Assembly (NCBI RefSeq): GCF_002221505.1
Contig: NZ_CP011036.1
Span: 1,736,001-1,800,000, forward strand
DNA: 64,000 bases
Direction of reading: 5' to 3'
Source of the DNA: Pseudoalteromonas nigrifaciens
GTDB lineage: Bacteria > Pseudomonadota > Gammaproteobacteria > Enterobacterales > Alteromonadaceae
Below are positions 42,224 through 54,595 of the stretch, one piece after another. Both the position numbers and the translations under genes were made by a program. Numbering within the stretch: position 1 is the first letter of the stretch; each line of letters begins with the position of its first letter. Under the pieces are notes generated by a model. It was not told the origin of the DNA. It did not search any database and worked only from the letters and a program-made list of their open reading frames with translations.

Positions 42224-43462
42224 CGCTGGTTTATTAAGTACTGATGAAAAAATGCCATTTATTAAAAGTTTATCTATGGCCGTGTCTGGGTTTTTATTTG
42301 TGTGGTTAAGCAAATGCGGTAACAGGTTTTCAACCAGTTCACGTGCATTACCTTCAACGCGTTTGTGCAGCCACTGCCACCATTTTGCGTCGTCTTGGGC
42401 GAGTTTTACGGTGCCCTCGGTTAACTCTAAAAACAGGGTGCGAATGTCTTCAACGGTTATTTGGCCAATGGGTTTAGGCCAAAAGCACACGCGGCTTGCT
42501 ATTAGTTCGTAGCGCTCTTGCGTTTGCAGTTTGTCGACCAGCTGAATGTTGCCAACGAGAGTTACGCCTACAATGGCTTGGTCGCTAATGGTGCGCAGTG
42601 GGTCGAGTGAGTTAGGCTTGCACTTATCGGCTTCGTCTAAAATGATTAAACGGTCGGTATCGCGCAGTGCCATAATAATTTTTTGCATGTTTTTATACGC
42701 ACTTGGGCAGCGCGATAAGCCTAGGGCTGCAGTTAACTGCTCAAGCACTTGGGTACTACTGGTTTGCTCGCTGCCGGCGATTAAAATGGCTTCTTTATTT
42801 TGGCGGCAATATTCATTAATACCTTTGGTTTTACCTAGGCCCGCTTGGCCTGCAAACACACTAAAGCGCTTACGTGCGCGCGCTTGGTCGCACGCCATAG
42901 CAATAAGCTTAGAGGTACTAGTAGGAATAAAGCGTACATCGCCGTACACAATACTAATTTGCTTGCGCTCGGCGGGGTTGTTATTAGCCTTGCCTTGGTC
43001 AACGTCTGCAGGGCAAATTAACGCCCAAATGTCGTGTAAGTGTTTAGTGGGTTTGGCGTTGTATTTACCGTTAATTAATTGGCTAATAGACGACGTGCTT
43101 TTACCCATGCTTACGGCAATACTGGCGCTGGTAATATTTTGGTCGCGTATTTCGGGCGATTGCAAGCGCAAACAAATACGTGATGCTAATTCGCGATCGG
43201 CTTTAGCATACGACTTATTAAAGCCGTTACGTTTTTCAATGTCGGTAATAGCCGCTTCACCAAAGAGCTTATGCCACATAGCTACAACTATTTTTTCAGG
43301 ATTTATAGTGCATTTATTTGCCAGCACCTCTTTAACCGATTGCAGCGCAAAGCCACAATTTAGCTCCTCAATAGTCATGCCTGTGGTGCTCAGCTCTTGG
43401 TTAATAAGCTCAACACGTAGCGTTTGCTCGGGTGTGTATGGGAATGGTTGGTTATAGCTCAT
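42218..43462 (-). CDS. MuB-like transposition ATPase
   Basis: A 414-aa AAA+ ATPase, longer than Mu B (312). Walker A GQAGLGKT is at 205-212 and Walker B LIILDEAD at 272-279. The N-terminal part contains a helix-turn-helix (SIAVSMGKSTSSISQLINGKYN) as in MuB. It should capture target DNA, activate the transposase and give target immunity. It overlaps the transposase gene by 11 bases. Confidence 0.92.
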   Translation of the reverse strand: MSYNQPFPYTPEQTLRVELINQELSTTGMTIEELNCGFALQSVKEVLANKCTINPEKIVVAMWHKLFGEAAITDIEKRNGFNKSYAKADRELASRICLRLQSPEIRDQNITSASIAVSMGKSTSSISQLINGKYNAKPTKHLHDIWALICPADVDQGKANNNPAERKQISIVYGDVRFIPTSTSKLIAMACDQARARKRFSVFAGQAGLGKTKGINEYCRQNKEAILIAGSEQTSSTQVLEQLTAALGLSRCPSAYKNMQKIIMALRDTDRLIILDEADKCKPNSLDPLRTISDQAIVGVTLVGNIQLVDKLQTQERYELIASRVCFWPKPIGQITVEDIRTLFLELTEGTVKLAQDDAKWWQWLHKRVEGNARELVENLLPHLLNHTNKNPDTAIDKLLINGIFSSVLNKPAV

Positions 43463-45116
43463 AGCTGTGTTCCTTACGTAAAAGTGGTTGGTCTAATAAT
43501 TCGTTTAGGTCAATTTCGTGCTGTGGCACTGCAGGTGCTACGTCAAAATCAAAAATATTTACTGGGGTTAACTGCTCAGTAATGGCATTAACAGGCGCGG
43601 CCAGCTCAGTTACTGCATCAATATCAATAATGCGTGTACTGGCTTCTTGGGCGCGCACTTCTTGTAAATGTACTTGTAAGCGTTTTTCGCGGCCTGTAAG
43701 GCGTTTTTGCTGGGCTTGCTCAACACGCGAAGACGGTATTGCATGGGTTTTGCTTTTTAAGTTAGCAACCATTAAAAACTCACCGTTTAACTTATAAAGC
43801 TTGGTGTAGCTGTCGTCGTGCATGTCGTAGGCTGCAATTAGTTCTTGGCCATTAAACTGGTGCAAAAAGTCGGCACTGTAATCACGTTGATGCAAGCGAA
43901 AGCGGCCACGGCGAATGTTTACCGTTTCGCGCGGCAGCATTACAAAGTCGCCCTCTACCGGTGGTACGCGGTCAACGTTTTCATCCCATACTTGTTGGCG
44001 AGTTTTACCTTTAACTTCTGGGTGCTCACTGTTGTGGTAGTCGTTTAAAAAGGCTTTAAACTCAGCTATCCACTCGTCAACGCTTGGCAGTTTACGTTTG
44101 CCTTGCTTGGCTTCTTTTAGTACCAGCTGCTTATGGCGATCGTTATGATGGCGACCACAATAAGTGCTGAACTTTTTGCCTACACGGTCTTCCATGTGCA
44201 AAAAGAACCGCTCTATCCACTTGGCTCTGGCATTGCCAGGTATGGCAAAAATAACGTCTATTTCAAACTGGGCATAAAAGCCGGTGGTGTCGTCGTTCAT
44301 TAGTTTGTTTTTGTAGCCAGAGCCGTTATCTAAATAAAACATGGCAGGCACGTTGTTATGTACTTTAATAGCGCGGCTAATAGCGGCTAAAGTATCAATC
44401 GTGCTTTCGGCGTAGCCAAGTTCCCAGCCCACAATGCAGCGGCTTGCTACGTCTTGAAACGCGGTAAGTTCTGCACGGTATGGCTTGCCTGTTTTAGGGT
44501 GCGCTAAATACACGTCAATGGTGTGGCCATCGCCGTTATACATAACGCCAGGCTTAATGTTGTCGGTTGAGCGCAGTAAGTGATCTTTGTGCTTTTCGCG
44601 ATACAGTTTTGCACCCATACGGTATGGGCTTTGTGGGCCTAACTCATGGGGCAATGCATTTATAAAGCGGCGTACTTGGTGGTGCTGTGCCTTGTAACCC
44701 TCTTTATTTAATTGGTCGCTCACTTGCGCAAAGCTTGGGCTATTTGGGCTGTGGTACAGCTCAAGGCTACGTGCAAGCCAGCTGTACTGGGTTTGTGCTT
44801 TGCCTTTATGGTTAGGTAATAAGCCATTAATGCCATTGTCTTTGTACGCATTACACCAGTTATATATAGTGGCGCGGCCAGGCAGCTTGCCTAGTACTTC
44901 AATAGCGACCATTAAGGTGCTAGGCGCTAGGTTTGCACGGTAATTAGTTACAAGTAACTCAAACGCTTTTGGTAACCCGCCTTCTTGGGTAAGCAAGTGG
45001 CGCACAAGTACAGCACGGCTTTGGGCTTTTTTACGGGCCGTTTCGCTGGCATTTTGCCAACTTAGTTCGCTACCTGTGCTTGGTAAGCGATTAAATCGTT
45101 GAACTGCAGGATGCAT
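43452..45116 (-). CDS. MuA-like DDE transposase
   Basis: A 554-aa transposase of the Mu A type (Mu A: 663). The N-terminal 170 residues hold helix-turn-helix DNA-binding regions; the catalytic core shows D196 (YNGDGHT), D263 (YLDNGSGYK) and E302 (KWIERFF), followed by the beta-barrel domain and a C-terminal region that should contact MuB. It performs integration and replicative transposition. It lies 10 bases downstream of the 45126 gene. Confidence 0.93.
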   Translation of the reverse strand: MHPAVQRFNRLPSTGSELSWQNASETARKKAQSRAVLVRHLLTQEGGLPKAFELLVTNYRANLAPSTLMVAIEVLGKLPGRATIYNWCNAYKDNGINGLLPNHKGKAQTQYSWLARSLELYHSPNSPSFAQVSDQLNKEGYKAQHHQVRRFINALPHELGPQSPYRMGAKLYREKHKDHLLRSTDNIKPGVMYNGDGHTIDVYLAHPKTGKPYRAELTAFQDVASRCIVGWELGYAESTIDTLAAISRAIKVHNNVPAMFYLDNGSGYKNKLMNDDTTGFYAQFEIDVIFAIPGNARAKWIERFFLHMEDRVGKKFSTYCGRHHNDRHKQLVLKEAKQGKRKLPSVDEWIAEFKAFLNDYHNSEHPEVKGKTRQQVWDENVDRVPPVEGDFVMLPRETVNIRRGRFRLHQRDYSADFLHQFNGQELIAAYDMHDDSYTKLYKLNGEFLMVANLKSKTHAIPSSRVEQAQQKRLTGREKRLQVHLQEVRAQEASTRIIDIDAVTELAAPVNAITEQLTPVNIFDFDVAPAVPQHEIDLNELLDQPLLRKEHSYEL

Positions 45117-46753: not shown

Positions 46754-47017
46754 TTATTCGCTGGCTAATAGCTCGCGCAGCGCTTGTACTTTTTGGCTGC
46801 GGGTATCTTTATTTTTTGTATAAGCAGATACATCTGGGAAAATGGCTTCTACCGGTTCACCAATAATTTTGGCAATAGCAGAGGCTACTTTGTATGAGGT
46901 GGTGTGTTGGTAAATAACACTGCTAACGTGCGACAGGTTTAAGCCTAGTGCAGTAGCAACAATTGATAGTGAATAGCCTTTTTCTTCAAGTGCTTGTTTA
47001 ATTTGGTCTGGTTTCAT
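46754..47017 (-). CDS. Ner/Nlp-like DNA-binding protein
   Basis: An 87-aa protein with an N-terminal helix-turn-helix: PDQIKQALEEKGYSLSIVATALGL followed by SHVSSVIYQ (in parts) and IAKIIGEPVEAIFP, close to Ner of Mu and Nlp. Ner turns down early transcription and blocks repressor expression. It is the first gene of the leftward operon, divergent from the repressor gene, as Ner is. Confidence 0.85.
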   Translation of the reverse strand: MKPDQIKQALEEKGYSLSIVATALGLNLSHVSSVIYQHTTSYKVASAIAKIIGEPVEAIFPDVSAYTKNKDTRSQKVQALRELLASE

Positions 47018-47102
47018 TGTAAAGTGCCTTTTGGTTTACATACTCTTTTATGTTCTTTGGCGAGATATAAAGCGTATGTTTTTGTTAATGTGTGGCAAGT
47101 AT

Positions 47103-47221
47103 AGTTTCAATATATTGAAACTGTCAACGCCTTTGGTTTCAATATATTGCACTTAAACTTCATTTTTTTGTAAGTTACTGATGTTTAATGCGATTAAAAT
47201 GGTTAAAAGTTTCAATAAATG
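47103..47221. promoter_or_regulatory. Immunity operator region between ner-like and repressor genes
   Basis: AGTTTCAATA-TATTGAAACT (47103-47122) is a perfect 20-bp palindrome. A second copy, GTTTCAATATATTGCAC (47136-47152), matches it except at the outer right arm. A third partial copy, AGTTTCAATAAATG (47208-47221), covers the start codon of the repressor gene. The arrangement suits graded control of both divergent promoters, with autorepression through the third site. Confidence 0.8.
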
Positions 47222-47899
47222 ACAACTTTTTTGCGCGATGAACGTAACCGGTTAGGGTTAACGCAAGCTGAAGCTTCAAAAGCTATTGGTGTTGGTAAGA
47301 CAACTTTTCTTAGGTGGGAGGCGGGACATCCAATTCCTTCCGATAAGTTAATCGCCCTATCTGATATAGGTTTTGATATTAACTACATACTAAAAGGCTC
47401 TAAAAGCGCTCCCCTACCTTTAGTGAAAACAAAAAGTACAGCGCTACAAACCAGTCATGCTGATCTAACGGCTGTGCCACAATACGATTTAGCGGCCAGT
47501 GCGGGCGGTGGTGCTTTGGTGGTGGCTGAACACCCAATTGCGCGGTTTGAATTATCGAGCCGTTGGTTGCAGCAAAATAACTTACATAATAAAAAATTAA
47601 CGGTAGTACCTGTACGCGGCGATAGTATGGAAAGAACCTTGTTTGACGGCGACTTAACTTTGGTCTCGTTGATTGATGACCAAACTGATGCACGTGAAGG
47701 TGTGTGCGTACTACGCTTTGATGATGAAATTTTTGTAAAGCGTATTCAGTACGACTTTAAAAGTAAGGGCTATAACATCACTAGCGACAACAGCGCCTAC
47801 TCTGGCTTTTTTGTTGATGCGGATGATATTAACGCTGGGCGCTTTAGCGTGCTTGGCCGTGTAGAACGTGTGCTACAACGTGCGCGTAAAGTGGATTGA
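47219..47899 (+). CDS. LexA/CI-type self-cleaving phage repressor (XRE + S24)
   Basis: A 226-aa repressor: XRE helix-turn-helix at 5-60 (LTQAEASKAIGVGKTTFLRWE) and a C-terminal S24 peptidase domain with cleavage pair A95-G96 (ASAGGG), catalytic S136 (GDSM) and K174 (VKRIQ). Such repressors cleave themselves when RecA is activated, so this prophage should be SOS-inducible, unlike Mu with its c repressor. There is no good ribosome site; the start codon lies in an operator half-site. Divergent from the ner-like gene. Confidence 0.92.
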   Translation: MTTFLRDERNRLGLTQAEASKAIGVGKTTFLRWEAGHPIPSDKLIALSDIGFDINYILKGSKSAPLPLVKTKSTALQTSHADLTAVPQYDLAASAGGGALVVAEHPIARFELSSRWLQQNNLHNKKLTVVPVRGDSMERTLFDGDLTLVSLIDDQTDAREGVCVLRFDDEIFVKRIQYDFKSKGYNITSDNSAYSGFFVDADDINAGRFSVLGRVERVLQRARKVD

Positions 47900-47917
47900 T
47901 AATAAAAAGGAATGCAG

Positions 47918-48292
47918 ATGGAGTTGTTAGACCGCAAATATGTACGAGAGTTGGCTAGTCAACATGACATAAGGCTGCTTGCTGCTGCCCTAAATAAGAC
48001 CTCCCCGCAACTACAGCTTGATTTAGACGATGAACTAAGTGAGTTAACTAAAGAGCTTAGCGAAGAAGAAGTTAAAAAGTTTGATATGATTTACTGTCAA
48101 GAGATGGATGCTTTAACAGTAATGAAGGAAGTAGAAGTTGCAAAGGACAAATTAAAAATCGCTGAACTTGAAGCTAAAACCGCTGAGGTAGAGTTGAATC
48201 AAGCGCAAGAGCAAGGCGAAATTAAAATTATTGGTTATGTTGTGGCCTTTGCAATCATATTTTTTGTTGGGCTGTTTATTTTTGGTAAGTAG
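47918..48292 (+). CDS. Coiled-coil protein with C-terminal membrane anchor
   Basis: A 124-aa protein (start at 47918, preceded by AAAAGG). Residues 25-100 are strongly charged and helical with heptad character, and the end is one hydrophobic helix (IIGYVVAFAIIFFVGLFIF) plus GK. Not recognised. It lies 18 bases after the repressor gene on the same strand, so it is probably made in the lysogen and may serve host conversion or exclusion. Confidence 0.65.
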   Translation: MELLDRKYVRELASQHDIRLLAAALNKTSPQLQLDLDDELSELTKELSEEEVKKFDMIYCQEMDALTVMKEVEVAKDKLKIAELEAKTAEVELNQAQEQGEIKIIGYVVAFAIIFFVGLFIFGK

Positions 48293-48344
48293 AGCATATA
48301 AAGTAGGTTTTTAGTTTTAACGTTTATTTAATGAGGGATTATTT

Positions 48345-48824
48345 ATGAAGAGTGTTTTTATAACGGCTGCTATATGTGCGGTACTTGTCGGCTGCGGTAA
48401 TAAAGAAGAAGTGCAAGCTACACAACTTACTCCACCACCGAAAGATTTTATTAGCCCGGATCGGTTCCTCAAATTTAGACTTGAAGCAGCAAGTGATATT
48501 TTAAAGACTGCCGCAACTGCCGATGGTTCAATTACTACAACTACCTCGCAATACAAAACCCGCTATGACAGTACTGATGGTGTTATTACATATTCTGAGA
48601 TTTACTTGCTAGATACTGCACCATGTAGCCAAACAGAAACTTTTGATCCTATTGCGGTGTTAAATGCTGTTGCTGTGAATCCAAAAAAGTTAGAAGAACA
48701 AGACAGAATGACCCATTTAGTCACTTACTATGATCATCAAGAAAAATTAAAGATTAGTGTTACCTGTGAGCAAGACGGAACGCCGATTGTGGTTAGGTTT
48801 AGTAATAAATATTATGGACATTAA
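48345..48824 (+). CDS. Putative lipoprotein in the lysogenic region
   Basis: A 159-aa protein with signal peptide ending in the lipobox VGCG (cysteine at 17), so it is probably a membrane lipoprotein. GAGGG precedes the ATG. Its mature part is not recognised. Because it follows the repressor in the region usually expressed in lysogens, a role in superinfection exclusion is possible, but this is inference. Confidence 0.7.
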   Translation: MKSVFITAAICAVLVGCGNKEEVQATQLTPPPKDFISPDRFLKFRLEAASDILKTAATADGSITTTTSQYKTRYDSTDGVITYSEIYLLDTAPCSQTETFDPIAVLNAVAVNPKKLEEQDRMTHLVTYYDHQEKLKISVTCEQDGTPIVVRFSNKYYGH

Positions 48825-48840
48825 TTAATAGTTTAGACTT

Positions 48841-48884
48841 TATAATAGGTTGATATTTTTAGTAGGCTATGTACAATTTAGATT
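48841..48884 (+). promoter_or_regulatory. Putative sigma-70 promoter of the RT unit
   Basis: TTGATA (48850-48855) and TACAAT (48872-48877) with a 16-base spacer form a good -35/-10 pair, giving a start near 48883-48885, exactly at the base of the long-range stem. A perfect TATAAT also lies at 48841-48846. Confidence 0.55.
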
Positions 48885-49036
48885 CCTGACATTAGGTGGC
48901 ACTTGCCGCTCCCTTCATGTATGTCACTATTGTGATTCTTATAGGCTCCTATGATGATTCTAATTGTATCTAATTGTCTCATTGTTGCCTACTCAGTTAG
49001 TTTTTAGTCATGCGCTTGCGCTAGACATGTCAGGGA
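48883..49036 (+). ncRNA. Structured leader RNA of the reverse transcriptase unit
   Basis: TTCCTGACAT (48883-48892) pairs with ATGTCAGGGA (49027-49036), a 10-bp stem with one G-U pair, enclosing 134 bases. Inside are four local hairpins: GGTGGC/GCCGCT (48895-48910), TCAC/GTGA (48924-48935), TTATAG/CTATGA (48939-48954), and GCG-CTTG-CGC (49012-49021) with a CUUG tetraloop. Between the third and fourth hairpins lies the tandem repeat TCTAATTGTA-TCTAATTGTC (48959-48978) with a weaker third unit. No convincing coding frame covers it. Position and closed form resemble RNAs that act with retron or defence reverse transcriptases. It is predicted by eye, not folded by program. Confidence 0.55.
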
Positions 49037-49053
49037 GATATGGAGGGTTATGT

Positions 49054-49206
49054 ATGGAAGATAAATCTAAACATAGTCTAGTTAAAGAGCGTATCGAATT
49101 AGCAACAGCCGTTATTGGATTCTTAAATGAATTTTATGACTTTATGCTGATTGTTATCGATCTCTTTAACATGGCTTTTAATTACTCATATTTGCTAAAA
49201 AAATGA
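49054..49206 (+). CDS. 50-aa hydrophobic protein coupled to the reverse transcriptase
   Basis: A 50-aa protein: a charged start (MEDKSKHSLVKERIE) followed by a long hydrophobic helix (AVIGFLNEFYDFMLIVIDLF in part) and a lysine-ending tail (YLLKK). It has a strong GGAGGG ribosome site 7 bases upstream, better than any for the in-frame ATG at 48964, which would lie within the structured leader. Its stop TGA overlaps the RT start as ATGA, and the RT has no ribosome site of its own, so the two are translated together. It could be a membrane effector or regulator; no family is recognised. Confidence 0.7.
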   Translation: MEDKSKHSLVKERIELATAVIGFLNEFYDFMLIVIDLFNMAFNYSYLLKK

Positions 49207-49970
49207 TTTACAATTCCAGTTGGTCCAATAGATTCGAAATTAAACCTGGTAGGTGGGTTTACAACCCAAGCTCTTCAAGTCGTAAGTCTGGTGAAAATGT
49301 ACTAAAAACACTTAATAAATCATGGCGATCCCCTTCGTATTATTATCACTTAAGATCTGGTGGACATGTAGAAGCATTATCTGTTCATTTACAAAATAAT
49401 TTCTTTTCAACAATCGATATAGCTGATTTTTTTGGCTATATAAGTCGTAGTAGAATTACAAGAGCGTTAAAGAAAGTTATCAGTTACGAAAAAGCTAGAG
49501 AAATAGCAAAACTGTCTACCGTTAAAGTAATGGGAAATTACCCCCACTCTCATCACTTACCCTACGGCTTTATACAATCTCCATTACTTGCTTCTATATG
49601 TTTAGCTGATAGTGCGCTAGGTATTTTTTTAGAGGAAATATACAAAAATAATTTAGCAACTGTGTCAGTTTATATGGATGACATTGTAATATCTTCAAAT
49701 GACGAAAGTGGTCTTAATAATATTTATGATAAGTTGATTGATAAATTAGAGAAGTCAAAGTTCCTAATTAATGATAAAAAATCAAATAAAGTTTCTGAAA
49801 AGACAACCGCATTTAATATAGAAATTTACCATAATGAGATGAAAATTGAGTACGAAAGGTTTGTTAAATTTCAACGAGCATATTCTTTGAGTAATTCAGA
49901 TCATCAAAAGAAAGGAATCGGATCATATGTTGGTAGTGTTAACAAAAAGCAATCTAAGCTTTTAATTTGA
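49203..49970 (+). CDS. Stand-alone reverse transcriptase (defence-RT-like)
   Basis: A 255-aa protein that is only a reverse-transcriptase domain. Visible motifs: motif A FFSTIDIADFF with D72; motif B LPYGFIQSP at 119-127; motif C VYMDDIVIS with YMDD at 157-160; and a following AFNIEI segment near 203. N-terminal YYYHLRSGGHVEAL precedes motif A. No maturase, endonuclease, helicase or primase part. The QSP in motif B excludes diversity-generating RTs (which have SQ). It lacks the retron NAxxH and VTG motifs. It therefore fits best among unknown-group or defence-associated RTs. It is AT-rich, lies in the cargo region of the prophage, and is coupled to the small upstream gene. Target and product unknown. 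Confidence 0.88.
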   Translation: MIYNSSWSNRFEIKPGRWVYNPSSSSRKSGENVLKTLNKSWRSPSYYYHLRSGGHVEALSVHLQNNFFSTIDIADFFGYISRSRITRALKKVISYEKAREIAKLSTVKVMGNYPHSHHLPYGFIQSPLLASICLADSALGIFLEEIYKNNLATVSVYMDDIVISSNDESGLNNIYDKLIDKLEKSKFLINDKKSNKVSEKTTAFNIEIYHNEMKIEYERFVKFQRAYSLSNSDHQKKGIGSYVGSVNKKQSKLLI

Positions 49971-50090
49971 CCCTAGATTATTTAAGTATACAAACTTCTA
50001 ACACTTTTTCATTTATTATACCCAAAATACATTAACGCCTGTAAGCTATTTTAAGCGCCCTGCTTTGTTTTGTGGCTACATTGGCTTTAG

Positions 50091-50148
50091 TTGAAACCGT
50101 TTAAACACACCCAGTCGAATTTAAACGCAGTTTAAACATGGTTTAAAC
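50091..50148. repeat. 11-bp-phased TTTAAAC array D
   Basis: TTGAAAC at 50091, then TTTAAAC at 50100, 50120, 50131 and 50142; the last three are exactly 11 bp apart and 50100-50120 is close to two steps. It lies in the gap 49971-50181 after the RT gene, which otherwise shows no gene. Confidence 0.75.
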
Positions 50149-50181
50149 TCATTTGCGGGGTGTGTTTGTTAGATTCACTTG

Positions 50182-50553
50182 TTATAGCGCATTTAAGGCA
50201 CTGGTTAAATCGGCTTTAGCTTTGCGAGTTGAATAGTTTATTTGCTTACTTGAGCGCAGTGGGTCTTTTAATACTATTTGTTGCTGGGCTATTGCTATGT
50301 ATTCATCCGTTGAAATATAACCATCACTAAAGCTGCTTTTAATTTTTGCTGTTAGTAGTGGGTTTGTGTTTTGGATAATACGCTGCGTGAGTGTGTCGTA
50401 CATGTTGGGCGATATTTCATTGGGCTTTCCATATTCAACATTTTTTATGTTGGGTTGTAGCAATAACTGCTGCGAAGCAAATAATGCTGCAGCTATTAAT
50501 AATGTCACGAATAACGCTTTTTTGGTTTGAAGTATTTTAGGGAGCATGGCCAA
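50182..50553 (-). CDS. Hypothetical protein with N-terminal membrane anchor
   Basis: A 123-aa protein with an N-terminal helix (ALFVTLLIAAALFASQQLLL) after a short basic start, then a soluble part. The remainder is polar with no known motif. It lies between array D and a terminator, transcribed against the RT unit. Not recognised. Confidence 0.55.
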   Translation of the reverse strand: MAMLPKILQTKKALFVTLLIAAALFASQQLLLQPNIKNVEYGKPNEISPNMYDTLTQRIIQNTNPLLTAKIKSSFSDGYISTDEYIAIAQQQIVLKDPLRSSKQINYSTRKAKADLTSALNAL

Positions 50554-50615
50554 TCCTTGGTTGTTTGATAGTTACTTTAGTTTAAAACAAATTCATAGGA
50601 ATGCTAATATGATAT

Positions 50616-50648
50616 AAAAGCCACCACCTAAAGTTAGTGGTGGCTTTT
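50616..50648 (-). terminator. Terminator after the small zinc-ribbon gene
   Basis: A perfect 12-bp stem AAAAGCCACCAC (50616-50627) with GTGGTGGCTTTT (50637-50648), 9-base loop; works on the minus strand for the gene at 50654-50794 and equally on the plus strand. Confidence 0.85.
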
Positions 50649-50653
50649 ATAGA

Positions 50654-50794
50654 TTACTTGCAGCTAGTGCAGTGAGGGATAACTAAGCATCGTTTACCTT
50701 TTTTGGGGTAGATTACTTTGCCGTTTTTAGTCACATGACTAACAAAGCTTACCTCACAAGGTTCTTTGCACTTAGGACAATAACCATTTTTCAT
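50654..50794 (-). CDS. Small zinc-ribbon-like protein (46 aa)
   Basis: A 46-aa protein beginning MKNGYCPKCKEPC with CxxC at 6-9 and a second pair at the end (HCTSCK), the pattern of a zinc ribbon. The start at 50794 is preferred over the in-frame start at 50845 because GGAGA precedes it. A strong terminator follows. Not recognised. Confidence 0.65.
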   Translation of the reverse strand: MKNGYCPKCKEPCEVSFVSHVTKNGKVIYPKKGKRCLVIPHCTSCK

Positions 50795-50981
50795 AGTCGT
50801 TTCTCCGTTGCTGAGAGAATACAACCATACAAATGCAACTTGCACATGCTTTACTAGGGGTTTATAATCTATATCGCCAAATATAATTATGACCTAGTTT
50901 GTTTGTATTCTCAGGTTAAAATTAACTTTTACTGTTAAGGTAAAAGACCCAGTTTAGCCTTGACCTTTGGTCAGGGCTTTA

Positions 50982-51449
50982 CTACCCATAAAAGTCAAAA
51001 GACAATTGTTTTGTTTCATAACCCATTATAGAAAGTATAATTTCTGCAAACATATCCGCTTGCCATTCAGCATCTTCTATTTCTTCAGCTGGTTTATCGG
51101 AATAATGCATTAACGACCGATGTCCTAGAAATAAATGACCCAACTCATGCAACATTACTGCTAAAGCTTCCTGCTCCCCAATGCATGCATTATTGTATAT
51201 AGACTGTGGTACACAGATTATTGCTTTACTTGGGTCGCAGTGACCTTTAGTTAAAAATATCCAATCTTTATCATCTACAACTTCTAACGTAACTCTGAGT
51301 TGATACAAAAGCTCAAAGTTTTTGTCTAAGTTTCGTCTGTTTCGACGTTTAAAGTCGAAAGCTTTGGCAAAATTCTCTGCAACGACTTTAATTTGACTGA
51401 GAGGTAACGGCGAAACTCTGTTCCCTCTCAATCGGTAATTTTCAGGCAT
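50982..51449 (-). CDS. ImmA/IrrE-type metallopeptidase
   Basis: A 155-aa protein with the zinc motif HELGH (in VMLHELGHLFLGHR) and a downstream DAEWQADMFA glutamate segment, typical of ImmA/IrrE peptidases. These cleave a partner XRE repressor encoded beside them; here the XRE gene is 2 bases upstream. The pair may form a switch, independent of the main repressor, or a toxin-antitoxin-like unit. Confidence 0.85.
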   Translation of the reverse strand: MPENYRLRGNRVSPLPLSQIKVVAENFAKAFDFKRRNRRNLDKNFELLYQLRVTLEVVDDKDWIFLTKGHCDPSKAIICVPQSIYNNACIGEQEALAVMLHELGHLFLGHRSLMHYSDKPAEEIEDAEWQADMFAEIILSIMGYETKQLSFDFYG

Positions 51450-51451
51450 AA

Positions 51452-51814
51452 TTATTCCTTACTACATTTGTTAATATCCTCTAAGAACTCTGCAAACTTT
51501 TTTAACTCATCCGGAGTAAAAGGTGAATGCGCGAATCCAGCTATAAGCATTTGCTGTTGCTGAGATAAACCACTTAACGATACGTTCTCATTGGCTACGT
51601 CTGCTAGCTGCCCTAAATTACTTATTGGGTGACCTTTTGATTTAAAAAAAGTATATATTTTACTAACCCAATTTTTTGATATTTTTTTACTACCAGTTTC
51701 TAATCCACTTAGATAGGCAGTCGAAGTTTCTAGCTCTTGAGACATAGTTTTCAATGTGTAACCTACGTCAATTCGAGCTTTACGAATTGTTTTACCAAAT
51801 TCAGAAAGTGCCAT
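51452..51814 (-). CDS. XRE-family regulator paired with ImmA-like peptidase
   Basis: A 120-aa protein with an N-terminal XRE helix-turn-helix (TLKTMSQELETSTAYLSGLETGSKKIS) and a helical C-terminus. The start at 51814 follows a strong GGAGG, so the upstream in-frame ATG at 51832 is unlikely. It is the probable substrate of the ImmA-like peptidase and probable ligand of the palindrome at 51904-51918. Confidence 0.85.
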   Translation of the reverse strand: MALSEFGKTIRKARIDVGYTLKTMSQELETSTAYLSGLETGSKKISKNWVSKIYTFFKSKGHPISNLGQLADVANENVSLSGLSQQQQMLIAGFAHSPFTPDELKKFAEFLEDINKCSKE

Positions 51815-51903
51815 TGTTCCTCCTCGCTTCATGACCCGATTTGAAGCTATTTATAATTTACCATAAAAGAATAATAATTCAACTAAAAAGGTTAATTTAT
51901 TTT

Positions 51904-51918
51904 ACCATTAATAATGGT
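51904..51918. promoter_or_regulatory. Palindromic operator candidate
   Basis: ACCATTA-A-TAATGGT is a perfect 7-1-7 palindrome between the divergent XRE gene and the rightward head operon; a half-site TTTACCAT recurs near 51857. It may be the XRE operator and would then also control the head genes. Confidence 0.6.
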
Positions 51919-51956
51919 TGATACTTTTTAGATACCCGCTTAGCCTATATAAGCAA

Positions 51957-51997
51957 CCCCAATACACCCGCTGTAAAGTCTATTCCAGCGGTTGGGG
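51957..51997 (+). other. Nested RNA hairpin in the leader of the head operon
   Basis: CCCCAA (51957-51962) pairs with TTGGGG (51992-51997), and directly inside it CCGCTG (51968-51973) pairs with CAGCGG (51986-51991); the only interruption is a 5-base bulge (TACAC) on the 5' side. It is followed by a pyrimidine run CTCCTCCTC, complementary to ribosome-binding sequences. No T-run follows, so it is probably not a simple terminator. Confidence 0.55.
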
Positions 51998-52051
51998 CTC
52001 TCCTCCTCACATACACTGGTGCCACTTAGTTAGTTTATTGGCACTGGGAAC

Positions 52052-53218
52052 ATGGCAAACAAAACAAGCACAAACACCAAATTCAATTGGTTTGAAGTAT
52101 TTAGAGCCGGTACACAAACCGATTCTAAAGGCGTAACACACACATTTAGCGATGCAGATTTAAACAGCGTTGTAACCAACTTTAAACCTAAAACCGCTCC
52201 GCTGGTTATTGGCCACCCTAAAATGCACGATGCTGCATGGGGCTGGGCCAGTGATTTAAAAGCTGAAGGCGGCTCTTTGTTTGCTAAAGCAGACGATGTT
52301 TGCGCTGAATTTGCCCAAGCTGTAGCCGATAAGCGCTACCCTAACCGCTCGGTACGATTAGAAAAAGTAGCTAATGGCTACCAACTTGCGCACATTGGTT
52401 ATTTAGGTGGCAAGCCCCCTGCTGTTGAAGGCCTTGCCTGGCAGTTTAACCAAGCCGATGATGCCGACACCCTTACCCTAGAATTTGCTGCAGGCGATAT
52501 TGACAACATATCGCTGCACACATCAAACACCCTTACCCGCCTTATGAGTAATTTACGTGGCTTTATAACTGACCGCTTTGGTAGTGAAGCAGCAGATAAA
52601 GTTGTGCCTAATTACGAAGGTGAATGGTTAAAAGAAGAAACCATTATTGCTGAGCATGAGCGTGCTAAAGCCAATAGCGACAATACAGAATTTAATAAAG
52701 GCGATGATGCTATTAATACCGATATAAATAGCAACGCCACCCCACCCACCCATGAGGACAATGCAATGGATGAAAAAGAGAGAAAGGCGCTGCAAGACCA
52801 AATTGATGCAGCGAACGCTAAAAACGCTAAGTTGGAATACGCGCAGCGTGTTGCCGCGGCCAGCACCTTTATTAATACCGAAGTAAACGGTGGTAAAGCG
52901 CCGCGTTTAACGAATACCGATGGTGTGGCTGAGTTTATGGCCAAGTTAAATGATGGCGATGCCACGTTTGAATTTGCAGCCAGCGACGGTAAAAACCAAG
53001 AGCTTAAACCTGCGACCTGGTTTGAAGGGTTTTTAAAAGGTTTACCAGAGCAAACTGGCTTAACAAGCGAGTTTAATAAAGACGATAAAAACGGCGAAGT
53101 AACTGACGATAGTGCAGAAACACTGGCAGCTAAGGCGCTTGATTATCAACAATCACAATCTAGTAAAGGCGTGACTATTAGCATTACCGCTGCGCTGGAC
53201 CAAATTAAAAAGGCATAA
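52052..53218 (+). CDS. Phage head maturation protease/scaffold (Mu gpI-like)
   Basis: A 388-aa protein. The N-terminal half (NWFEVFRAGTQTDSKG, APLVIGHPKMHDAAWGW, YPNRSVRLEKV, YLGGKPPAVEGL) matches the Mu I protease family; the C-terminal half from residue 239 is charged and helical, as a scaffold. As in Mu (I and Z), an internal start can give the scaffold alone. It is the first gene of the rightward arm and precedes the capsid genes. Confidence 0.88.
   Translation: MANKTSTNTKFNWFEVFRAGTQTDSKGVTHTFSDADLNSVVTNFKPKTAPLVIGHPKMHDAAWGWASDLKAEGGSLFAKADDVCAEFAQAVADKRYPNRSVRLEKVANGYQLAHIGYLGGKPPAVEGLAWQFNQADDADTLTLEFAAGDIDNISLHTSNTLTRLMSNLRGFITDRFGSEAADKVVPNYEGEWLKEETIIAEHERAKANSDNTEFNKGDDAINTDINSNATPPTHEDNAMDEKERKALQDQIDAANAKNAKLEYAQRVAAASTFINTEVNGGKAPRLTNTDGVAEFMAKLNDGDATFEFAASDGKNQELKPATWFEGFLKGLPEQTGLTSEFNKDDKNGEVTDDSAETLAAKALDYQQSQSSKGVTISITAALDQIKKA
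52766..53218 (+). CDS. Internal-start scaffold protein within the protease gene (gpZ-like)
   Basis: An in-frame ATG at 52766 (MDEKERKALQDQ) is preceded by GAGGA at 52754-52758, a good ribosome site inside the coding sequence. It would give a 150-aa scaffold, like Mu Z within I. The location at the boundary of protease and helical region supports real use. Confidence 0.65.
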   Translation: MDEKERKALQDQIDAANAKNAKLEYAQRVAAASTFINTEVNGGKAPRLTNTDGVAEFMAKLNDGDATFEFAASDGKNQELKPATWFEGFLKGLPEQTGLTSEFNKDDKNGEVTDDSAETLAAKALDYQQSQSSKGVTISITAALDQIKKA

Positions 53219-53222
53219 GACT

Positions 53223-53618
53223 ATGGCAAATCCAGGATTTATTAAAAACTTTGCGGCAACAGCTACTATTGCTGCTAACCGCTTGGTTGTTGTATCGCCA
53301 GTGGCTGACTTTGCTGTAGCAAGTGCGGTAGATGCAAGCGCAGCGTATGCCGGCGTAACTGAGCAAGGTACAGACGATCATTTACGAATAGATGTGGTTA
53401 TGACTCAAAGTGCGCCGGTTGAATTTGGTGGTGTAATTGAAGCGGGTGATTTAATTATTGCAGACGCAGACGGTAAGGCAGTGGCATTTGACTTAGCGAC
53501 TAGTGTGGGTGCGACACAAATACATATTGCAGGCTGGGCCATGGAAGACGGTGACGTGGGTGTAATTGGTGACATATTTTTAGCGCCACAAGTAATAGCG
53601 ACTATTCCAACTGCATAG
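53223..53618 (+). CDS. Capsid decoration-like protein
   Basis: A 131-aa small beta-rich protein (NPGFIKNFAATATIAANRLVVV, in part) rich in alanine, glycine and valine, between protease/scaffold and capsid genes. Position and composition fit a DUF2190-like decoration or stabilising protein. Not firmly recognised. Confidence 0.65.
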   Translation: MANPGFIKNFAATATIAANRLVVVSPVADFAVASAVDASAAYAGVTEQGTDDHLRIDVVMTQSAPVEFGGVIEAGDLIIADADGKAVAFDLATSVGATQIHIAGWAMEDGDVGVIGDIFLAPQVIATIPTA

Positions 53619-53659
53619 CGCAGCTGGGTTAACTTAAATATATATAATAAGGATTTGTC

Positions 53660-54595
53660 ATGAGTAATGGTATGCCATTTACCCCTGATGTTGAGCAAAC
53701 GGCGATTGCCATTGCTTACAAAAATAAAGCCTTGGTTGCAGATACACTTGCACCTTATTCACCGGTTGGGTTACGTAACTACAAATGGACCGAGTATAAA
53801 AAAGGCGAAAAATTTACCGTTGTAGACGATAAAATTGGCCGTAAATCGTCTCCTAATCAAGTTGAGTTTAGTGTTGAAGATAGAACAGGCTCAGTTGTTG
53901 ATTTTGGCTTAGCAGATGTTGTGCCAAATGACGATGTTACGAATGCGCCAGCAAACTATAACCCGCGTTTACATGCTGCTGAAAGTTTAACTGATTTGGT
54001 ATTGCTTAATCGTGAAATACGCGTTGCTAATATGTACAACAAAGCTGCTAACTTTGGTAGCACTCAATCATTAGCGGCGGGCGGACAAAAGCGTTTAGAT
54101 GATGCAACACTGGATATTTTGCCGTTCTTTTTAGACATGCTTGATGCACCACTTATGCGCCCGAATGCCATGACGCTATCGCAAAGTGTGGCCACTAAGC
54201 TGCGTACCCACCCTAAGTTACTAAAAGCGTTTAACGGTACTAGTGGTGATCAAGGCCTAGTGCCATGGAGTTATATTAAAGAAGTACTTGAGCTTGATTA
54301 TATAACCGTAGGCCAAGCGCGACTGAACACAGCTAAAAAAGGCCAGGCACTTGATCTGCAACGTGTGTGGAAAGATAGCTTGTCGTTTACTTACCACGAT
54401 CCGCTTGCGTCGTTTAACAATAACCGTATGACCTTTGCGCTAACCGCCCGTTATGGCTCGCGTACATCGGGCAATCGTGATGTTGCTGCTGGTTTAAACG
54501 GTGGTGTTGAAATTATGGTAGGCGAAGCTGTACAAGAGCAAGTTATTGCAAAAGATTGCGGTATTTTACTTACCAACGTATTAACGCCTGGCTAA
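53660..54595 (+). CDS. Major capsid protein
   Basis: A 311-aa protein following protease/scaffold and decoration genes, with AAGGA ribosome site. Segments such as TPDVEQTAIAIAYKNKALVADTLAPYSPV and KWTEYKKGEKFTVVDDKIGRKS (in parts), and SLSFTYHDPLASFNNNRMTFALTARYG near the end, fit phage major capsid proteins of the B3/D3112-like type. It is followed by a terminator. Confidence 0.85.
   Translation: MSNGMPFTPDVEQTAIAIAYKNKALVADTLAPYSPVGLRNYKWTEYKKGEKFTVVDDKIGRKSSPNQVEFSVEDRTGSVVDFGLADVVPNDDVTNAPANYNPRLHAAESLTDLVLLNREIRVANMYNKAANFGSTQSLAAGGQKRLDDATLDILPFFLDMLDAPLMRPNAMTLSQSVATKLRTHPKLLKAFNGTSGDQGLVPWSYIKEVLELDYITVGQARLNTAKKGQALDLQRVWKDSLSFTYHDPLASFNNNRMTFALTARYGSRTSGNRDVAAGLNGGVEIMVGEAVQEQVIAKDCGILLTNVLTPG

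Follow-up and report, generated by a model that had tools for sequence, protein, structure and literature searches.

A prophage cassette pairing a retron-branch reverse transcriptase with a folded RNA that appears to run through the gene of a probable membrane peptide

Introduction

The stretch of DNA analysed here (hereafter, the window) comprises 64,000 nucleotides of Pseudoalteromonas nigrifaciens (contig NZ_CP011036.1) and corresponds to C1:1736001-1800000 of a 4.27 Mb genome. Within a prophage it carries a gene for a small reverse transcriptase (RT), preceded by a leader RNA and a small open reading frame (ORF), and the locus raises the question of whether these parts form one unit and to which kind of RT system they belong. 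A preliminary description had taken them for a candidate new defence unit built around a stand-alone RT of an unknown group (UG). On sequence comparison, the promoter, structured RNA, small hydrophobic protein and RT make up one conserved unit in prophage cargo. The main new point is that the structured RNA, as indicated by patterns of base pairing, continues through the peptide gene to about 49170; the preliminary description had overlooked the peptide gene as part of the folded RNA.

Results

A leader RNA with a retron-like fold

The leader RNA is predicted to fold like retron RNA, with a closing stem (P1), small hairpins (P2, P3 and P4) and one variable hairpin (Table 1). Seventy non-redundant upstream regions could be aligned from the -10-like box to the RT, and the -10 columns of the promoter are conserved among them. 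In a leader alignment of 56 sequences, mostly gammaproteobacterial, betaproteobacterial or viral, P1 is paired in 99.1% of cells, with double-sided changes in five of six counted pairs; P4, a GCGC-TT-GCGC hairpin within a conserved block, is nearly invariant and hence gives no covariation signal. Taken together, P1, P3, P4 and the helix P5 described below are paired in 94.4% of cells, versus 22.8-41.1% when the partners are slid by one to three columns, so the leader structure lies far beyond chance. The covariation score, 0.327, is higher than in any of 500 shuffles (mean 0.212); two further measures do not surpass every shuffle, the number of double-change pairs being reached by four shuffles and that of further pair types by 173. 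Folded alone, the window leader forms P1 (10 pairs), P2, P3, the long variable hairpin and P4. The mean z is -2.5 for P2 (below -1 in 52 of 56) and -1.5 for the variable hairpin (33 of 56).

A covariance model scores the window, which is among the model's own sequences, at 109.7 bits. With 13 of 105 loci omitted as near-duplicates, 77 of 93 sources yield a single match, located upstream of the RT, and at values up to E 1 the rest of the 1.0 Mb yields none. The model was built from 56 of these 77; five matches at distant loci are weak (1.7e-5 to 0.0043), and one stands at 0.4. Of the 16 sources without a match, nine are distant loci, and the remaining seven have no upstream DNA or no matched RT start. 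A comparison of 47000-52000 with Rfam found nothing up to E 1. The promoter and structured leader of the preliminary description, and the expectation that the leader would be conserved near homologous RTs, are borne out. After the 5' strand of P1, A12 and G13 are invariant and U11 is present in at least 90% of the 56 sequences, a conservation that is no more than suggestive of a retron priming site.

Continuation of the fold through the peptide gene

Three further helices, P5, P6 and P7, involve the start region and codons of the small ORF and covary, even though the ORF is clearly coding (see below). Each was assessed by swapping partners between loci, a control that preserves the sequences and leaves relatedness among loci unaccounted for. 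P7, which closes the hydrophobic stretch as a hairpin of peptide codons, has an own pairing of 6.90 over 56 loci, versus 4.17 ± 0.18 for swapped partners (maximum of 500 swaps, 4.63). Full exchanges of the helix are seen (for example, GTTAAAGAG/CTCTTTAAC, GCTCAGAAG/CTTCTGAGC, GTTGTAGAG/CTCTACAAC and GCTAATGAG/CTCATTAGC), and the Val-Asn, Ala-Ser and Val-His residue pairs of the peptide therefore follow base pairing. The result was repeated with 12 distant loci, mostly alphaproteobacterial and unused in finding P7 (14 were tried, of which two had no NY anchor), giving 8.83 versus 5.66 ± 0.41, with none of 500 swaps as high. For P6, the start-codon hairpin, the values are 5.54 and 4.03 ± 0.12 (maximum of 300 swaps, 4.39). 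P5 links nucleotides after P4 to codons 8-9 and crosses P1, either as a pseudoknot or as an alternative fold; it is the weakest helix, with an own pairing of 5.53 versus 4.77 ± 0.10 (maximum of 200 swaps, 5.08) and 83.6% of cells paired in fixed columns.

The P7 interval of the window, taken alone, folds into one 90-nucleotide hairpin of -29.2 kcal/mol, and the stretch that begins at P5 and reaches into the RT start shows a mean z of -2.3, with 46 of 56 loci below -1. P6, P5 and P7 abut, which gives the leader and the peptide gene the look of a single uninterrupted fold. One folded RNA seems to be both the partner RNA of the RT and the message for the peptide. Between P7 and the RT start lies a short conserved AACAUGG...AACUA-like stretch (49168-49185 and relatives), in which third codon positions are partly conserved.

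The small ORF and its product

A profile of the small ORF finds a candidate preceding the RT in 97 of 106 sequences, 77 of them at E 0.01 or better, and inspection of two more loci (L018, L067) brings the count to as many as 99; in the other seven, upstream DNA or the matched RT start is missing. Most of the 20 weaker matches have an NY or HY ending, which is common to most loci, and three (L050, L052, L105) are doubtful. The shared pattern is MKK-(L-V-x-E-R), a hydrophobic stretch of variable length and (N)MAFNY followed by a tail; the window peptide ends in ...FNMAFNYSYLLKK. Maximum 17-residue hydropathy (KD17) is at least 1.6 in 76 of 92 peptides and the median N-terminal charge is +2, and the product is probably a single-pass membrane peptide. 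The ORF is coding: over 56 segments, frame 0 contains no stop, whereas stops occur in 56 in frame +1 and in 48 in frame +2; 21% of composition shuffles are open. The small ORF ends near or across the RT start, in the window through an ATGA in which its stop overlaps that start. The hydrophobic 50-residue ORF, its GGAGGG and the ATGA overlap were all present as originally described, and the gene is kept beside RT homologues.

Linkage and evolution of the unit

The cassette runs from promoter through leader and small ORF to RT in about 1.2 kb, and the proposed span of 48841-49970 fits this unit. The P4/P1 motif alone, searched in 2.9 million viral contigs, gave 36 matches, 35 with the cassette RT directly downstream; at the remaining one the available DNA stops 86 bases on. 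No other gene (ORFs of at least 60 residues) is common within 3.5 kb of 85 non-redundant loci, the next real neighbour families, named via PHROGs from one example protein per group, being integrase (16 loci), baseplate (10) and tail proteins (5 or fewer). In pairs such as L025/L036, L027/L028 and L033/L101, high identity is confined to the interval between roughly the promoter and the RT stop, with unrelated DNA on either side.

Loci frequently resemble one another much more closely in leader and small ORF than in the RT (in L033/L034, mostly 96-100% versus 68-94%). Synonymous divergence (dS) is lower in the small ORF than in the RT in 16 of 19 pairs with finite RT dS, drawn from 30 listed pairs of which two were skipped and one (L063/L068) was misanchored; members are shared between pairs and some RTs are partial. 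RNA constraint and module exchange both fit. Near-identical leaders and small ORFs, the latter almost unchanged at synonymous sites, accompany much more divergent RTs in the group L032, L033, L034 and L101 and in the pairs L003/L042 and L071/L080. At L097, L099 and L100 and in L058/L094, the peptide gene is largely replaced or remodelled beside a similar leader and much of a similar RT, as if it were a swappable module.

Placement of the reverse transcriptase

The RT matches RVT_1 at E 1.5e-17, above the model cut-off, and D72, P120, G122, Q125, S126, Y157, D159 and D160 are invariant in all 27 aligned RTs (window included), chosen from 120 listed relatives, in agreement with the 255-residue RT with core motifs first noted. 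The protein carries no extra domain and stops after the thumb. A search of 5.8 billion proteins found 139 relatives at E 1e-3 or better; among the 120 matches listed, most are about 255 residues long, those with names are called reverse transcriptase or hypothetical protein, and hosts include Vibrio, Photobacterium, Shewanella, Acinetobacter, several Enterobacterales and Ralstonia. Sixty loci were collected from species genomes and 45 from viral contigs. Thirteen Klebsiella phage records contain the RT, near one record end, and 11 plasmid matches comprise nine at 30-46% identity over 77-97% of the RT and two weak ones, one of them an annotated Ec67 retron. One copy (L005) comes from a metagenome-assembled genome named Candidatus Roizmanbacteria, distant from the other hosts and possibly containing a misbinned contig.

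By the tests made, the RT appears to belong to the retron branch, outside the retron types sampled. A tree was built with 36 of 94 near full-length family RTs and with references carrying the labels of the searches that retrieved them, namely 13 retron RTs (labelled types VI, II-A and I-B only) and a few UG types, most UG groups being absent. The family is a deep sister to all 13 retron references (support 98.5/100); DRT2, a UG2-like RT and UG17 lie outside family plus retrons, the two UG2-type RTs forming the next branch (82.9/98). Eight intron RTs, all exceeding the TIGR04416 cut-off of 300, also fall outside. The best fold matches of the RT are retrons. No specific NCBIfam model is reached above its cut-off, and PADLOC gives cross-hits only: the RT scores 59.1 on retron St85 (cut-off 235), 59 bits on the type VI retron model versus 120-281 for the 13 best matches of that model, and 21.5, 18.6 and 17.0 bits on the curated Drt3a, Drt5 and Drt3b models (cut-offs 200, 550 and 350).

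Two other assignments were not supported. An unknown-group or DRT enzyme disagrees with the tree position of the few UG types sampled, the retron folds and the missed DRT cut-offs, and this part of the preliminary description found no support. A group II intron RT disagrees with the position of the eight intron RTs, with a score of 36.1 bits on the intron RT/maturase model and with a protein that ends after the thumb. Grouping with retron or group II intron RTs, which that description had named as contrary to its proposal, is found in part for retrons (a sister position, outside the sampled types, with two motifs altered) and not for introns. Its remark that the unit matches no nameable type stands as regards the NCBIfam, Rfam and PADLOC searches. 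The window genome holds 12 further RTs. Nine have open frames of 443 residues and fall into two score groups, while the other three contain an inner TGA; one from each 443-residue group was checked, and both exceed the group II intron RT cut-off.

Prophage setting

The surrounding prophage, which we label Mu-like, contains a transposase, a repressor with further regulators, and head genes (Table 1). Between repressor and head genes lie ORFs of 126 and 159 residues and then the cassette. Among 108 same-genus genomes the repressor region was matched in 12, with a long match in two sister prophages (G178, G191), relative to which a slot from about 48816 to 50024-50042 is exchanged, in keeping with the variable prophage cargo first proposed. 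G178 shares with the window the 159-residue ORF before the slot and a patch after it (50042-50146), and compared with G178 the window cargo is only the leader, small ORF and RT. In their place the G178 slot (L203:3167-5790) carries three different ORFs: two are the PADLOC candidate defence pair PDC-M53A (1.2e-143) and PDC-M53B (8.2e-64), and the third (352 residues) has no match in Pfam or PADLOC. The G191 slot holds other genes, three ORFs of which have no PADLOC match. Among the 108 genomes, the cassette RT is restricted to the window genome (392.8 bits; runner-up 53.6); an identical RT occurs on a 42,444-base viral contig (L061; IMG/VR). Flanking the slot, a metalloprotease gene (50982-51832; PHROG 87, weak Peptidase_M78) lies by a minus-strand helix-turn-helix regulator, a pair that we take to resemble ImmA/ImmR-type phage regulators.

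Table 1. Features of the cassette and its prophage, in window coordinates.
Feature	Position	Strand	Basis
Prophage transposase	43452-45116		PHROG 310, 8.6e-100
Repressor	47219-47899		S24 domain
Promoter-like TTGATA-N16-TACAAT (TTGATA 48850-48855, 16-nucleotide spacer, TACAAT 48872-48877)	48850-48877	+	sequence
RNA domain 1	48883-49036	+	covariation, single-strand fold, covariance model
P1, closing stem	48883-48892 with 49027-49036
P2, hairpin	48895-48910
P3, hairpin	48923-48936
Variable hairpin	48942-48991
Conserved leader block	48996-49026
P4, hairpin in conserved block	49012-49021
P5, predicted helix (49022-49026 with 49076-49080)	49022-49080	+	partner-swap test
Shine-Dalgarno-like GGAGGG of small ORF	49042-49047	+	sequence
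P6, predicted start-codon hairpin (49048-49053 with 49071-49076; ATG at 49054)	49048-49076	+	partner-swap test
Small ORF, 50-residue hydrophobic peptide	49054-49206	+	profile, coding frame, hydropathy
P7, predicted helix (49081-49089 with 49162-49170) closing 90-nucleotide hairpin of peptide codons	49081-49170	+	partner-swap test
Reverse transcriptase, 255 residues (fingers, palm, thumb; YMDD 157-160)	49203-49970	+	profile, alignment, tree, fold
Head protease, scaffold, major head protein	52052-54595

Discussion

The reading that we favour, and to which we give an even chance, is that the cassette is a self-contained retron-like antiphage unit carried as prophage cargo, in which a folded message controls the membrane peptide. 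Comparison establishes the conservation, fold, coding frame, linkage and cargo slot of the parts; from their anatomy we infer an abortive system of retron type, in which DNA synthesis, repression, toxicity and defence could proceed as follows. The RT would bind the leader RNA and copy part of it into DNA in the manner of retrons; the resulting RT-RNA(-DNA) complex and the folded start region would between them keep the peptide unmade or inactive. Infection would disturb the RT complex, the peptide would be made or freed, and by entering the membrane it would halt the cell before the invading phage matures. The suggested antiphage role is strengthened by the candidate defence pair in the sister-prophage slot.

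Several observations weigh against this proposal, most strongly the altered retron motifs and two loci with an apparently broken RT (L035, L036). NAxxH and VTG are motifs of retron RTs, present in four and three, respectively, of five retron references compared; in the cassette family A58 replaces the N of NAxxH and F204-N205 (x-F-N) replaces VTG, invariantly in all 27 aligned RTs. Retron profile matches alone prove little, because intron RTs score equal or higher on some retron models: St85 gives 77-82 bits in three of the eight intron RTs versus 59 for the window RT, and RT_II-A gives the introns of the same genome 68.3 versus 54.5. In L097/L099 the peptide is largely replaced (38-58% identity) beside a leader at 82-96% and an RT at 86-100% over most of its length. 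Finally, the RT appears frameshifted at L035 and its match ends at residue 178 at L036, with leader and small ORF apparently intact at both; a strong toxin restrained by the RT alone would forbid a broken RT, unless the RNA fold is enough by itself or the apparent defects come from errors in assembly.

Alternatively, the small ORF could be a leader peptide whose translation opens P5-P7 and, through the ATGA, couples to the RT start, thereby setting only the level of RT, with any defence due to RT and RNA alone. The start codon and codons within conserved hairpins, the termination of the ORF near or across the RT start, and its slower synonymous change all fit such a role. A coupler, however, need not stay hydrophobic, yet the high KD17 is kept in most peptides and the NY or HY ending at most loci, and we regard this alternative as unlikely.

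It is improbable that the P7 codon hairpin is itself the template, so that the RT acts as antitoxin by turning the toxin message into an RNA-DNA hybrid and the peptide appears only once a phage has blocked reverse transcription. If this were so, retron-like template and toxin gene would be the same nucleotides. We consider equally doubtful a mechanism like that of class 2 DRT systems (DRT2, DRT9), in which infection triggers the copying of a confined RNA template into repeats or a repeated gene that is the effector. It would accord with the conserved neighbouring RNA and its crossing helix, the DRT2 RNA being likewise described as pseudoknotted (PMC12039810), and with the two UG2-type RTs as the next branch in the tree. 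Against it, the RT lies on the retron branch, which the UG2 types do not join, and a start codon and a Shine-Dalgarno site are already in place for the peptide.

Improbable too, in our judgement, is a function outside defence, by which the unit would serve the prophage itself in repression, maintenance or exclusion timing. Copies do occur in contigs of phages and viruses, as well as next to genes for integrase, baseplate and tail proteins, and we know of no test of any copy of the cassette, which we count on the side of this explanation. The cassette, however, occupies an exchangeable slot here and lies beside other phage genes elsewhere, and the corresponding slot of a sister prophage is taken by PDC-M53A/B. 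That the small ORF is an untranslated accident of a long RNA hairpin is very hard to credit, for although the hairpin accounts for several conserved residues (the Val/Asn, Ala/Ser and Val/His pairs), the frame and shuffle counts given above oppose it.

The cassette may represent an antiphage unit of a new kind. With it the retron RTs gain a deep and widespread sister lineage in very compact form, and the conserved overlap between a folded RNA and a membrane peptide gene poses the question of whether an RT can regulate how an effector is translated, either by binding the message or by copying it.

Comparison with known systems

Retrons (Ec86, Eco8, type VI and type I-B RTs) resemble the cassette in the fold of the RT and the branch to which it appears to belong, in an upstream RNA made up of a closing stem, small hairpins and one hairpin that varies, and in having a partner gene. 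The cassette differs in the shortness of its RT and the two altered motifs, in an RNA that overlaps and appears to structure the partner gene, and in a partner that is a peptide of about 30-60 residues. Type I toxin mRNAs such as hok and tisB likewise encode a small membrane peptide within a message folded at its start region; the cassette is distinguished from them by the RT gene that directly follows.

A membrane protein gene beside a defence RT, as the preliminary description supposed, has precedents in DRT1 with drt1b and in RT-nitrilase (UG5) with 1TM (PMC13275509, PMC9122126). In those systems the RTs contain a nitrilase domain and come from unknown groups, and the available parts of these reports describe no comparable leader RNA; the DRT1 report likens drt1b to Hailong, in which an ion channel is blocked by DNA adducts. 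DRT2 (UG2) resembles the cassette as a short RT operon with a pseudoknotted RNA beside it (PMC12039810). Its RT lies on another branch, and its toxic product arises only after cDNA synthesis.
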